A stretch of DNA of 36,137 nucleotides from Campylobacterales bacterium. GTDB lineage: Bacteria; Campylobacterota; Campylobacteria; Campylobacterales; Sulfurimonadaceae. Below are positions 11,061 to 33,256 of the stretch, in pieces; position 1 is the stretch's first letter; every line of letters starts with the position of its first letter. Location of the stretch: contig JAJRVF010000176.1 in assembly GCA_024277395.1 (NCBI GenBank), forward strand, positions 1 through 36,137, read 5' to 3'. Below the pieces are notes generated by a model. It saw nothing but the letters and a program-made list of their open reading frames with translations, made no database searches and was not told the origin of the DNA. The translations under genes and the position numbers were made by a program.

Positions 11061-11324
11061 CTACTCATTACGCAACACTTTCAGTACATCCACCTCAGAT
11101 GCCTTTTTTGCCGGATACCATGAGGAGATCAGCACAATAACAAAAGCACCACTGACAATCAGTGAAAAATCCAGAAGACTCAAATCCAGCGGCAGTGTTG
11201 AGGTAGGATAAACATCTTTGGGCAGTGAGACAATATCGAAACTGCTTAAAATCCATAGACCGCTTAATCCCGTCACAATCCCGACCGCAACACCACTAAG
11301 CCCAATAATAACTCCTAGCAGCAA
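11061..11324 (-). CDS. LolC/E-family ABC permease, C-terminal fragment (frame-shifted from 11315..12262)
   Basis: 87 aa; TM-rich tail ending SSWYPAKKASEVDVLKVLRNE, the typical MacB/FtsX/LolC-E C-terminus. Begins out of frame with the upstream fragment. Confidence 0.8.
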   Translation of the reverse strand: MLLGVIIGLSGVAVGIVTGLSGLWILSSFDIVSLPKDVYPTSTLPLDLSLLDFSLIVSGAFVIVLISSWYPAKKASEVDVLKVLRNE

Positions 11325-12262
11325 AAGAGCTTTTTAATCTCTATCTGAGAAGCTCCCAAAGAGATCAGCAAAGCAATTTCGGAACGTCGATTCATCACCG
11401 TCATCAACAACGACGAGATAATATTAATAGCAGCAATAAGAATAATCAACATTAAGACAATAAACAGTGCCGTCTTTTCCATCTCCAAAGCTGCAAAAAA
11501 ATTGGCATTATCTTCCCACCACCCTTTAATGCTGACGTTGGATGAGAGCTCTGCTTTGATTTTTTCAATATCTTTTTGTGGCGAGGGTGAGTATATATGA
11601 ATACCGTCATATTGGTTGGAGGGAATACGCAACACTTTTTGCAATGACTCTATTGTCGTATAGCTATAGGCTTTGTCATATGCTGAAAGCCCCGACTCAA
11701 AACTTCCCTGCACGACAAAACGCTTCATCTTGGGTGTTGCACCCAACCCACCGGGCTCCATCTGTGTAAAAATATAGGTCAATTTATCGCCTGGGTAGAG
11801 ATGATACTGCTCCATAATACTCTTGCCGACGATTACATCAAATCGATCCAGCTTCTTACCCTTGAGGGCCTCGGCCACTACACGGTTCACCTTGGCTTCA
11901 TCACTAAAATTAACTCCAAAAAGATATCCACCTTCAAACTGGTTGCCACTACGCGCAATGACCGGTGAAGAGACATAGGGGCTAAAGGAGAGCTCCGGAA
12001 ATTTACGCTCCAAGTCAAGCAGCAGCTCACTGTTGACACCACCGAAAAATCGGGGTAAAACGGTAAGAGGATAGTTCATCACCGTCAATTTTTTTTTAAA
12101 CTCGTTATCAAAACCGTTCATGAGTGCCATCGCAATTATTAACACCATGACCCCTAATGCAATGCCTAAAAATGCCAGCAGGGCAGAGAGAAAAATAAAA
12201 GGCTGATCGGAATCAAAACGTAAAAAACGTTTGACAAGATAGGGAACTAATGGTGTATTCAA
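11315..12262 (-). CDS. LolC/E-family lipoprotein-releasing ABC permease, N-terminal fragment
   Basis: 315 aa; N-terminal [11 protein letters not shown]...[28 protein letters not shown] and [30 protein letters not shown], then an abrupt LFCC*. Overlaps the secA 3' end by 4 nt. Confidence 0.85.
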
Positions 12263-15575: not shown

Positions 15576-16049
15576 ATGAGTGAATTTTTAAACAGTCAAG
15601 CTTCAGCTTATGAGAATCAGTTTCCACAGGGGCATCCCGTGCGTGTTTATCTTGAAGAGAATCTTCTTGTGCGTGATTATATCCGCCAGCTTCAAGCAAC
15701 CAGTATTGACAATAATCTAGAATTTTTTACCGAACTTTTTAATAAGCTTTCTACTGTTGAGCTGCACTTTGTACGTAAAGAGAATCAGCTCTTCCCTTAT
15801 TTGGAAAAACACGGCTGGACCAGTCCTTCTCAAAACATGTGGGCATTCCATGATCAAATTCGCGACGAGATCAAAGCAGCACGAAAAGCGCTCAAAAGCG
15901 GTGATACAGAAGCCATTATTATGACAACACAGACACTCTTTCGCTCATTGGAACATATCATGCAGGTTGAAGAGGGACGACTGCTTCCCAATGCACTGGA
16001 GCTTTTAAGTGAAGAGGAGTGGAAAGAGTTTCGTGAGGGTGACGAATAG
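15576..16049 (+). CDS. Hemerythrin HHE domain protein (hemerythrin module of a DUF438/COG2461-like protein)
   Basis: 157 aa; VELHFVRKENQLFPYLEKHGW, AFHDQIRDEI, LEHIMQVEEGRLLPNAL. Ends EFREGDE-TAG; the next ORF continues in the same frame. Confidence 0.8.
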   Translation: MSEFLNSQASAYENQFPQGHPVRVYLEENLLVRDYIRQLQATSIDNNLEFFTELFNKLSTVELHFVRKENQLFPYLEKHGWTSPSQNMWAFHDQIRDEIKAARKALKSGDTEAIIMTTQTLFRSLEHIMQVEEGRLLPNALELLSEEEWKEFREGDE

Positions 16050-16058
16050 ATTGGCTGG

Positions 16059-16559
16059 ATGTTTGAGACACCGCCGCCACCCTACCCTGAAGTTACGTAC
16101 ATTCATCCGAGCGACGATACGCAGCAGCGAAAGCTCCCGTTTGGTATTGATGATAAGACCCACTATGATGAGGGCTATTTAACACCGGCGCAGGTCAACT
16201 CCATTTTTAGAATTCTGCCTGTTGACATTACCTATGTCAACGAAAACGATCAAGTGGTTTTTTACAATCGCGGTGATGAGCGTGTTTTTCCCCGAAGTGC
16301 CGGTATTATCGGTCGTGAAGTAAAGTTTTGTCATCCGCCAAAAAGTGTCGATCAGGTACTCAGAATTTTAGAAGAGTTTAAAGCCGGAAGAGAAGATGTC
16401 GCCGAGTTCTGGATTCAGTTTAAAGGACAATTCGTCCACATTCAGTATTTTGCCGTACGCGATGAAGACGGTACTTACAGAGGGGTCATTGAGATGAGCC
16501 AGGATGTCACGCATATCCGCGCTCTTGAAGGGGAGCAACGGCTCCTTGACTGGAGTTGA
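16059..16559 (+). CDS. PAS domain protein (C-terminal module of a DUF438/COG2461-like protein)
   Basis: 166 aa; ILPVDITYVNENDQVVFYNRGDERVFPRSAGIIGREVKFCHPPKSVDQVLRILEEFKAG. Same frame as 15576..16049, with TAG plus three codons between. Confidence 0.8.
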   Translation: MFETPPPPYPEVTYIHPSDDTQQRKLPFGIDDKTHYDEGYLTPAQVNSIFRILPVDITYVNENDQVVFYNRGDERVFPRSAGIIGREVKFCHPPKSVDQVLRILEEFKAGREDVAEFWIQFKGQFVHIQYFAVRDEDGTYRGVIEMSQDVTHIRALEGEQRLLDWS

Positions 16560-30127: not shown

Positions 30128-32434
30128 TTACGCCTTTGTCTCATTCTTGTTAACGACATACTCTTTAATGTATGCCGCAATAACAAAGGCAAATATAATA
30201 CCATAAGTCACCGGCACAAAATCAGGGATCGGTACCGGGTCGCCTTTGGCATAGGAGTGCATTCCTGCCAAATAGTAGTTGACACCAAAATAGGTCATAA
30301 TCACTGATGTGAAAGCCAACAGCGATACAACGCTGTAAATATAGTCTGAGTATAGCGATTTAATGAAACGTAAGTGAATCACCACGGCGTAAACCAAAAT
30401 AGTTACCAATGCCCAGGTTTCTTTAGGATCCCAACCCCAATAACGACCCCAGCTTTCATTGGCCCAAACACCTCCCATAAAGTTCCCGACTGTCAGCAAG
30501 ATCAAACCAATCATCAGACTCATTTCGTTAATAGCATTGAGCTCTTTAATAGAGAGCGAAATTTTATGTGAATTAGCAGTATTTTTGACAATAAAAAGGA
30601 TCAGTGTAATAAATCCGAGCAACGCTCCTAGTCCCAAAAATCCGTAACTTGCCGTAATAATGGAGACATGGATACTCAACCAGTATGAATTGAGTACCGG
30701 TGCCAATGTCGTAATTTGCGGATCCATCCAGTTAAGATGCGCCACAAATAAAATAAGTCCGGTCAAAATACTCGTTGATGCTAAAGTAATAGGTGAATTT
30801 TTAGCAAAAATAAAGCCGGCAAACACCGTTGCCCACGCAATGTAGATCATAGATTCATAGCCGTTGGACCACGGAGCATGTCCCGAAATATACCACCGAA
30901 CGGCCAAACCGGCCGTATGGGCAACAAAAAAGAGAACAAGAAGCAGCAAAGCGCTTTTGGATGCCCACCCTATCTGAAAGCACGGTTTGATAATTTTAAC
31001 AAACGATAAAATCAGCAACACAAAACCGACTAAAAAGTAGAGTGGCCACAGCCGTTCAAAAAGCTGCGCATGGTTGTACCAAATTTCCAAATCTACTTTC
31101 ATGGCATCCGGATAGACCGCAACCCCGTAAAAATGCTGATATTTTGCGATATTTCCCAATGCGTCATCTGCCATGCTCCAGTCTCCGCTTTGGCGTGCCT
31201 CATCTACTGCCGTAAAATAGTTCATGGCAATGGCACGAATCCCTTCGGAGTCCACGGTTTCAAAGCTCTTCAATGCATCAATGGTAGCAAACCATTTATG
31301 TGTTTTGTCATTGGGACGCGGCCATATTTTCATTAAGGCACCTGAATATGCCATATAGGCAATATTGACGCGTTCATCAACTTTAAGCACGGCTTTATCA
31401 AACTTATTGCGCTTACCCGGTGATTTTCGCGTGGCTTCATCAACGTACTCTGCCAGTTTGTAGCCCTCTAGTGTATCGGGAAATTCAAAAAACTGTGAAA
31501 ACGAGGCAGTTTTGACACCCTTTTTGATGGCAATAATTTTATTGATCTCTTTATGCGATGTTTGAATCATGGTAATTTCACGCCATGCTTTGGGAGCCAT
31601 CATCATTCCTAAAAGAATCTGATTGGCATCAAGCCCCATCATGCTGTCGGAACGGTAGATTTTATTGACCACCTCCAGTGCGAGTGTATCCATTGGCTTC
31701 ATACGTCCGGCGGTATCTTGCACAATAAGTCTGCCAAATGCATCGGCGTGTTTTTTGTCAAACGAAAGCACCTCTTTAACAACAGGGCTTAACTCATCAG
31801 CCTCGCTCGGCACAGCAACCAAAAACAGTACTGCCGCCATCAGAGCTGCCGCCAGATTTTGATGCTCTCGAGCCGCCTTCAGTGCCTTGGCATTCAGTTT
31901 TCGGTAACGCCCCTTCAGCAGAAACGGTGAGAGAAACATGCCAATTGTCAGCATCGTATAGCCGATGTAGGTAATCAGTGTTCCGGGATCTTTATTGACA
32001 GAAAGCACCGTTCCTTGCTCATCCTGATCATACGATGACTGAAAAAAACGAAAGCCCTCATAATTCAATATGTTGTTCATATAGATGCGAAACGGACGCT
32101 CCACCATGTGACGCTTGTCAATCAGCACGACTTCACTGGCATAGGATGCGGGTGACATTGAACCCGGATAGCGCTCCAACTGAAAATCTTTTAGGTGCAG
32201 TGCAAACGGCAACTCAATAATACGCGCACCGTAAGTTATAGCTACTTTTGTCTTCCCGATATCACGGATTACGGCTCTACCTAAGACACCTGCTGCACCA
32301 AAAACCGTGACACGTTCGGTCACACTGCCATTGGTGATATCAAAAATCAATGCATCGCTTTCACGGTTGTTCATTCCTGAACCAACCGTCGCCGAAGCAA
32401 GTTTTTTAGTAGCATTGAGTTTAAAATCACGCAA
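30128..32434 (-). CDS. ccsA: Cytochrome c biogenesis protein CcsBA, C-terminal part (end of ResB/CcsB domain plus CcsA)
   Basis: 768 aa; CcsA WWD signature ANESWGRYWGWDPKETWALVTILVYAVVIHLRF. In frame with 32504..33256. The listed start is only a TTG. Confidence 0.85.
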   Translation of the reverse strand: MRDFKLNATKKLASATVGSGMNNRESDALIFDITNGSVTERVTVFGAAGVLGRAVIRDIGKTKVAITYGARIIELPFALHLKDFQLERYPGSMSPASYASEVVLIDKRHMVERPFRIYMNNILNYEGFRFFQSSYDQDEQGTVLSVNKDPGTLITYIGYTMLTIGMFLSPFLLKGRYRKLNAKALKAAREHQNLAAALMAAVLFLVAVPSEADELSPVVKEVLSFDKKHADAFGRLIVQDTAGRMKPMDTLALEVVNKIYRSDSMMGLDANQILLGMMMAPKAWREITMIQTSHKEINKIIAIKKGVKTASFSQFFEFPDTLEGYKLAEYVDEATRKSPGKRNKFDKAVLKVDERVNIAYMAYSGALMKIWPRPNDKTHKWFATIDALKSFETVDSEGIRAIAMNYFTAVDEARQSGDWSMADDALGNIAKYQHFYGVAVYPDAMKVDLEIWYNHAQLFERLWPLYFLVGFVLLILSFVKIIKPCFQIGWASKSALLLLVLFFVAHTAGLAVRWYISGHAPWSNGYESMIYIAWATVFAGFIFAKNSPITLASTSILTGLILFVAHLNWMDPQITTLAPVLNSYWLSIHVSIITASYGFLGLGALLGFITLILFIVKNTANSHKISLSIKELNAINEMSLMIGLILLTVGNFMGGVWANESWGRYWGWDPKETWALVTILVYAVVIHLRFIKSLYSDYIYSVVSLLAFTSVIMTYFGVNYYLAGMHSYAKGDPVPIPDFVPVTYGIIFAFVIAAYIKEYVVNKNETKA

Positions 32435-32503
32435 TACAAAATTGGTATCACCGGCAGTATAAAGTATGCGGGATTTCAGTACCTGTGTCGTTGAAGCATT
32501 TAA

Positions 32504-33256
32504 TTAACCGCTGAGCTGATCGTCCATTTGCAAATAGTGTAATGCCATTGGGTGGCTCATCTGCAGCTGATTATTCTCTATATGAATGTGAATGGTCTCT
32601 TTGTCAAAACGGTTTCCCGAATTAAAATCAATCACAAGATCCGAAGATTCAAAAAAACTCCCCTCTTCCAGTTGTACCCGTGTCGGTACTTTATCGTTGG
32701 TAATCATCATATTTAAAATAGCTTTTCCCTGCGGATCATCCACCAGTACATAAACAGCATTGGGAATATAATCTACCAACTTAACATCAATACCGCCGAC
32801 AGTCATTTCAAAATGGTTTTTGGAGTATTTCGAAAGTAAAATCGGCTCTTCTGAGGTGGTTACGCTTCCCTTTTGGGTAACGCTGACACCGATGTAGCTG
32901 TCGGAACTGACCATGGTATTGCTGGTTTCACCCTCTCGAATATGCATAATGCCTTCATAGCCGACATAGCGTGTCACGGCCGCACCGATTAAAATGACCA
33001 AAAACGAAACATGAAACAAAAACACCAAAAACTTCTGCTTCTGATACATTTTATATTGTATAATATTATACATGAGATTGCCTGCTAAGAGCAGCAGAAG
33101 CATCTCAAACCATAATGCATTATAGACCTCTGCTTTAGCCGTCATGGTTCCGTAGTCATTTTCAATAAATGTTGCATACCCGATAGCAACGGCAAAGATC
33201 AACATCAAGATTGCCATGGTTTTCATGGAACCCAATAGTTTTAAAATTTCTCTCAT
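32504..33256 (-). CDS. ccsB: Cytochrome c biogenesis protein CcsBA, N-terminal ResB/CcsB-like part
   Basis: 250 aa; MREILKLLGSMKTMAILMLIFAVAIGYATFIENDYG..., ResB-like TMs. Ends at a TAA that interrupts the frame leading into 30128..32434. Confidence 0.82.
   Translation of the reverse strand: MREILKLLGSMKTMAILMLIFAVAIGYATFIENDYGTMTAKAEVYNALWFEMLLLLLAGNLMYNIIQYKMYQKQKFLVFLFHVSFLVILIGAAVTRYVGYEGIMHIREGETSNTMVSSDSYIGVSVTQKGSVTTSEEPILLSKYSKNHFEMTVGGIDVKLVDYIPNAVYVLVDDPQGKAILNMMITNDKVPTRVQLEEGSFFESSDLVIDFNSGNRFDKETIHIHIENNQLQMSHPMALHYLQMDDQLSG

Follow-up and report, generated by a model that had tools for sequence, protein, structure and literature searches.

An in-frame amber codon between the hemerythrin and PAS modules of a Campylobacterota gene: a probable error of the assembled consensus

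The sequence considered here, below called the window, is the whole of contig C131 (36,137 nucleotides) of a draft genome (MAG) that comprises 1.88 Mb in 193 contigs and is rated 93.6% complete and 1% contaminated; its kin are Sulfurimonas/Sulfurovum-type Campylobacterota MAGs. Positions 15576-16559 of the forward strand form a reading frame with a single interruption, TAG at 16047-16049. The hemerythrin (HHE) module precedes the stop (15576-16046; residues 1-157 of the family protein; Pfam PF01814, E 1.2e-11); the linker and the PAS module follow it in the same frame (16050-16559; residues 159-327, then the TGA terminator; PAS_10, Pfam PF13596, E 5.7e-27). Both Pfam scores exceed the cut-offs. 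A sequence-only reading of this DNA had described two open reading frames (15576-16049 and 16059-16559) that share one frame and are separated by one TAG at the boundary of the two modules; the sequence, the ORF positions and the two Pfam matches agree with this description.

The same reading labelled the protein “DUF438/COG2461-like”. The hemerythrin-PAS chain implied by the label is present; a DUF438 domain was not found in the read-through protein (no Pfam match at E<=1e-3), and that part of the label is unsupported. The gene thus has the N-terminal HHE and the C-terminal PAS modules of the single-chain hemerythrin-PAS family (COG2461-like), with the chain broken by the TAG at 158, and shows no match to the DUF438 domain ahead of hemerythrin that defines DUF438/COG2461 proteins in the strict sense. 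In the alignment of relatives, H20, H92, E69, E132 and E133 are invariant and can be considered putative di-iron ligands. The AlphaFold model is moderate (mean pLDDT 72.5, the PAS part being poorly modelled); it predicts a helical bundle, mostly with pLDDT 77-97, for the N-terminal module, and nothing beyond the probable helical nature of this module is drawn from it. The gene belongs to an already known family and is ordinary within it, and the literature search on hemerythrin-PAS in Epsilonproteobacteria returned nothing on the hemerythrin-PAS protein itself.

Read through the stop, the frame matches its closest relatives over residues 1-327 with 80-84% identity. Position 158 is Glu (GAG or GAA) in 80 of 80 relatives, and each of the five closest uses GAG; among the columns of their alignment conserved to at least 97%, it is the one place where the window sequence departs. 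One chain runs through residue 158 in all 80 related loci, none of which is split into two genes there, and whole-genome searches of 40 relatives agree. This supports the earlier suggestions of a single hemerythrin-PAS chain and of one substitution at a Glu or Gln codon, Glu being the residue replaced by the TAG; the sister genomes were also checked for two independent genes with conserved starts, none were found, and the single-chain interpretation survives. Since all relatives have Glu158 and none is split at this residue, the TAG is a private one-base change. The dN of the PAS module to the relatives (0.04-0.08) equals that among the intact relatives, which suggests no decay, although the test is weak: the genomes are far apart, with dS close to saturation, and a break of recent date could not be seen in this way. 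An old pseudogene was rejected, as the PAS module bears no excess of replacements.

It could be proposed that translation reinitiates after the TAG at the ATG at 16059-16061, with separate hemerythrin and PAS polypeptides as the result. The ATG is 9 nt past the stop and the PAS module is still conserved; however, two separate genes were rejected in view of the absence of a split at residue 158 in any relative, and the Met in question is an ordinary conserved residue, the nearly invariant internal Met (IGWM) of the relatives. Judging from the alignment, this ATG is a mostly conserved internal codon rather than an evolved start. Neither is a ribosome-binding site well placed for it: no GAGG-like motif is present 5-9 nt ahead of the ATG, and the nearest one (GAGGGTGA) ends about 15-20 nt upstream, so the remark that no strong site lies near this codon was correct. 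Considering also that the origin of the stop is already accounted for by the genome-wide excess described below, we find reinitiation extremely improbable.

Amber suppression or TAG recoding would produce short and long forms of the protein. The observation in its favour is that prfA (RF1) was not found in the assembly and is present in 8 of 8 relatives searched; however, the neighbouring rpsT also had no match (in a search without a positive control, which is weak alone), and the assembly probably has a gap across rpsT and prfA. TAG ends 55 orthologues of the MAG at the position where they end in the same-genus genome G001, and it is therefore an ordinary terminator in the MAG; the internal stops are TAA and TGA as well as TAG. 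On these three grounds amber recoding was rejected. Moreover, an in-frame TAG at residue 158 is found in none of the 80 relatives, and no suppressor tRNA with a CUA anticodon was found in the scanned loci, which make up part of the genome. Neither readthrough nor a regulated two-form sensor nor recoding is likely, and the chance that this TAG is suppressed or recoded seems to us extremely small.

Two more genes of the window are broken. A second in-frame stop, TAA at 32504-32506 on the reverse strand, lies in a ccsBA-like cytochrome c biogenesis gene (ORFs 30128-33256) at a position where G001 has Glu. A one-base frameshift at 11317-11325, also on the reverse strand, splits the permease gene at 11061-12262 (ORFs 11061-11324 and 11315-12262), which we take to be LolC/LolE-like; the frame is open over 404-410 aa in G001, G004 and G005. 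Separately, the LolC/LolE-like gene of G003 consists of two overlapping pieces and is apparently frameshifted too. The two additional breaks in the window were the reason for the genome-wide comparison of stops.

About 228 genes were compared in both directions between 783 kb of the MAG (~42% of the genome) and 866 kb of G001. Stops in the first ~40-45 codons (mis-set starts) and at gene ends were set aside, as were two Trp-to-TGA changes in L204, where the 145-aa ORF concerned is probably antisense. Mid-gene stops were found in ~17 well-conserved genes of the MAG; in the reverse direction G001 has none, and its few stops fall within the first ~45 codons, as mis-set starts predict. Assigned by parsimony, as some of the stop codons differ at two bases, 15 of the 17 stops in the MAG are G:C>T:A changes of Glu, Ser or Gly codons to TAG, TAA or TGA. 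Going by the spectrum of changes between the two genomes themselves, this class should account for a share of 0.28-0.42 (binomial p of about 3e-7 to 1e-4). Mid-gene stops with the same base change lie in the genes of CTP synthase PyrG (L230) and ribosomal protein S1 (rpsA, L240), in hisC and fliG (both in L154), pstS (L213), a gspF-like gene (L206) and genes of RND transporters (L152 and L205), and a formate-dehydrogenase-like family is affected as well. The pyrG stop is at codon 148 of 542 (contig C44) and the rpsA stop at codon 476 of 553 (contig C54); no second full copy of PyrG or S1 was found in the MAG.

The missense changes point the same way: C>A changes number 863 versus 693 in reverse (z about 4.3), with transitions leaning in the opposite direction, under the presumption of near-stationary base composition (GC 43.8% and 43.4%). 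In the excess, nonsense relates to missense as 15:170, which is close to the unselected expectation of 0.09:0.72; therefore, the excess has not been filtered by selection. At the implied rate of ~1.5e-3 changes for each target site, the window, with about 11,000 coding codons, should hold 2.0 stops, and two are seen; as both are among the 17 from which the rate was derived, the agreement shows consistency but does not test the rate independently. The trinucleotides around the stops are mostly those that the available target codons would give and do not separate damage from mutation.

Since single-letter stops of the same chemical type are scattered in numbers through the MAG, the TAG most likely reflects a sequence error or DNA damage rather than a biological switch. 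We believe it quite probable that the gene is an intact single chain in the living organism and that the TAG is a G-to-T error of the oxidised-guanine type kept in the assembled consensus at low read depth. Oxidative damage ex vivo is reported to lead to G>T artefacts (PMC12390751). Guanine oxidised in the DNA or in the libraries would yield a G-to-T change, and low read depth, which we presume here, would let the erroneous T be retained in the consensus; the changes would then have arisen after sampling, by damage or in sequencing, and not in the cells. The sequence-only reading had listed a recent nonsense mutation, suppression and a sequence error as alternatives; the genome-wide G:C>T:A excess, the involvement of all three stop codons and the breaks in single-copy pyrG and rpsA favour the error and speak against suppression.

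Alternatively, the sampled population may really have acquired the nonsense mutation recently, either during a natural burst of G:C>T:A mutator activity or as an isolated pseudogene event, which would leave it with a truncated hemerythrin protein. One G>T change suffices for the stop, the same class of change is in excess genome-wide, and the undecayed PAS module fits a very recent event. In addition, Fpg/MutM had no match in 21 of 21 clade genomes searched, and the defence against oxidised guanine may depend on MutY. However, MutY is full length in the MAG with its motifs kept (contig G000:C176), and a mutator due to mutY loss was rejected on this ground; the excess, as noted, looks unfiltered by selection. 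With its one pyrG copy interrupted mid-gene, a cell would normally depend on external cytidine, and it is therefore unlikely that a living population is fixed for all the changes. We regard a real mutation as rather unlikely. It is more doubtful still that the whole G:C>T:A load is real, i.e., that a natural oxidative hypermutator population, perhaps dying or DNA-damaged, acquired ~1 new stop per 5,000-6,000 codons, including genes thought essential.

Several observations count against the consensus error. The rpoB gene is intact, and so are the long SecA-, aconitase- and PolA-like ORFs of the window; ~1 stop per 5,500 codons allows for this. The LolC-like frameshift, being an indel, calls for a different type of error. 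Finally, cells might survive with an rpsA truncated so close to its end.

A separate case is the genome G008 (L045/L009), the hemerythrin-PAS gene of which has its own TGA at codon 23, near the N-terminus, where relatives have Gly; its mutY (TGA and TAA) and rpsA (TAA) contain stops as well. This genome may carry a similar error load, or it may be a real mutator with a broken mutY.

As a gene finding, the observation is ordinary, and the break in the hemerythrin-PAS gene is most likely not real. Its interest is that the MAG, rated 94% complete and 1% contaminated, bears a systematic load of G:C>T:A stops that are private to it and lie in well-conserved genes. When a split gene, a pseudogene or apparent recoding is read from an assembly of this sort, the reading can be false, and a comparison of the direction of nonsense changes with a sister genome provides a quick test for such a load.

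The sequencing artefacts of oxidised guanine (G>T / C>A) show the same base change as the stops of the MAG and are blind to the effect on the codon; they are normally of low frequency in reads, whereas the changes in the MAG stand in a consensus, presumably of low depth. The hemerythrin-PAS proteins of Campylobacterota (Sulfurimonas, Sulfurovum, Sulfuricurvum and Arcobacter-type, MAGs and isolates) resemble the window gene over nearly the whole length at 61-84% identity and, in contrast to its TAG, all have Glu158. The PAS module (residues 196-320) is similar to PDB 2qkp, a PAS domain of an uncharacterised protein, the solved chain of which is the PAS part only. Both modules (residues 16-326, E 1.4e-45) are similar to the distant PF0695 of the archaeon Pyrococcus furiosus (PDB 3cax, an uncharacterised protein of the hemerythrin-PAS type, 369 aa), which, without a stop at the junction, is a single chain with Glu-Ile-Gly there and a longer linker.
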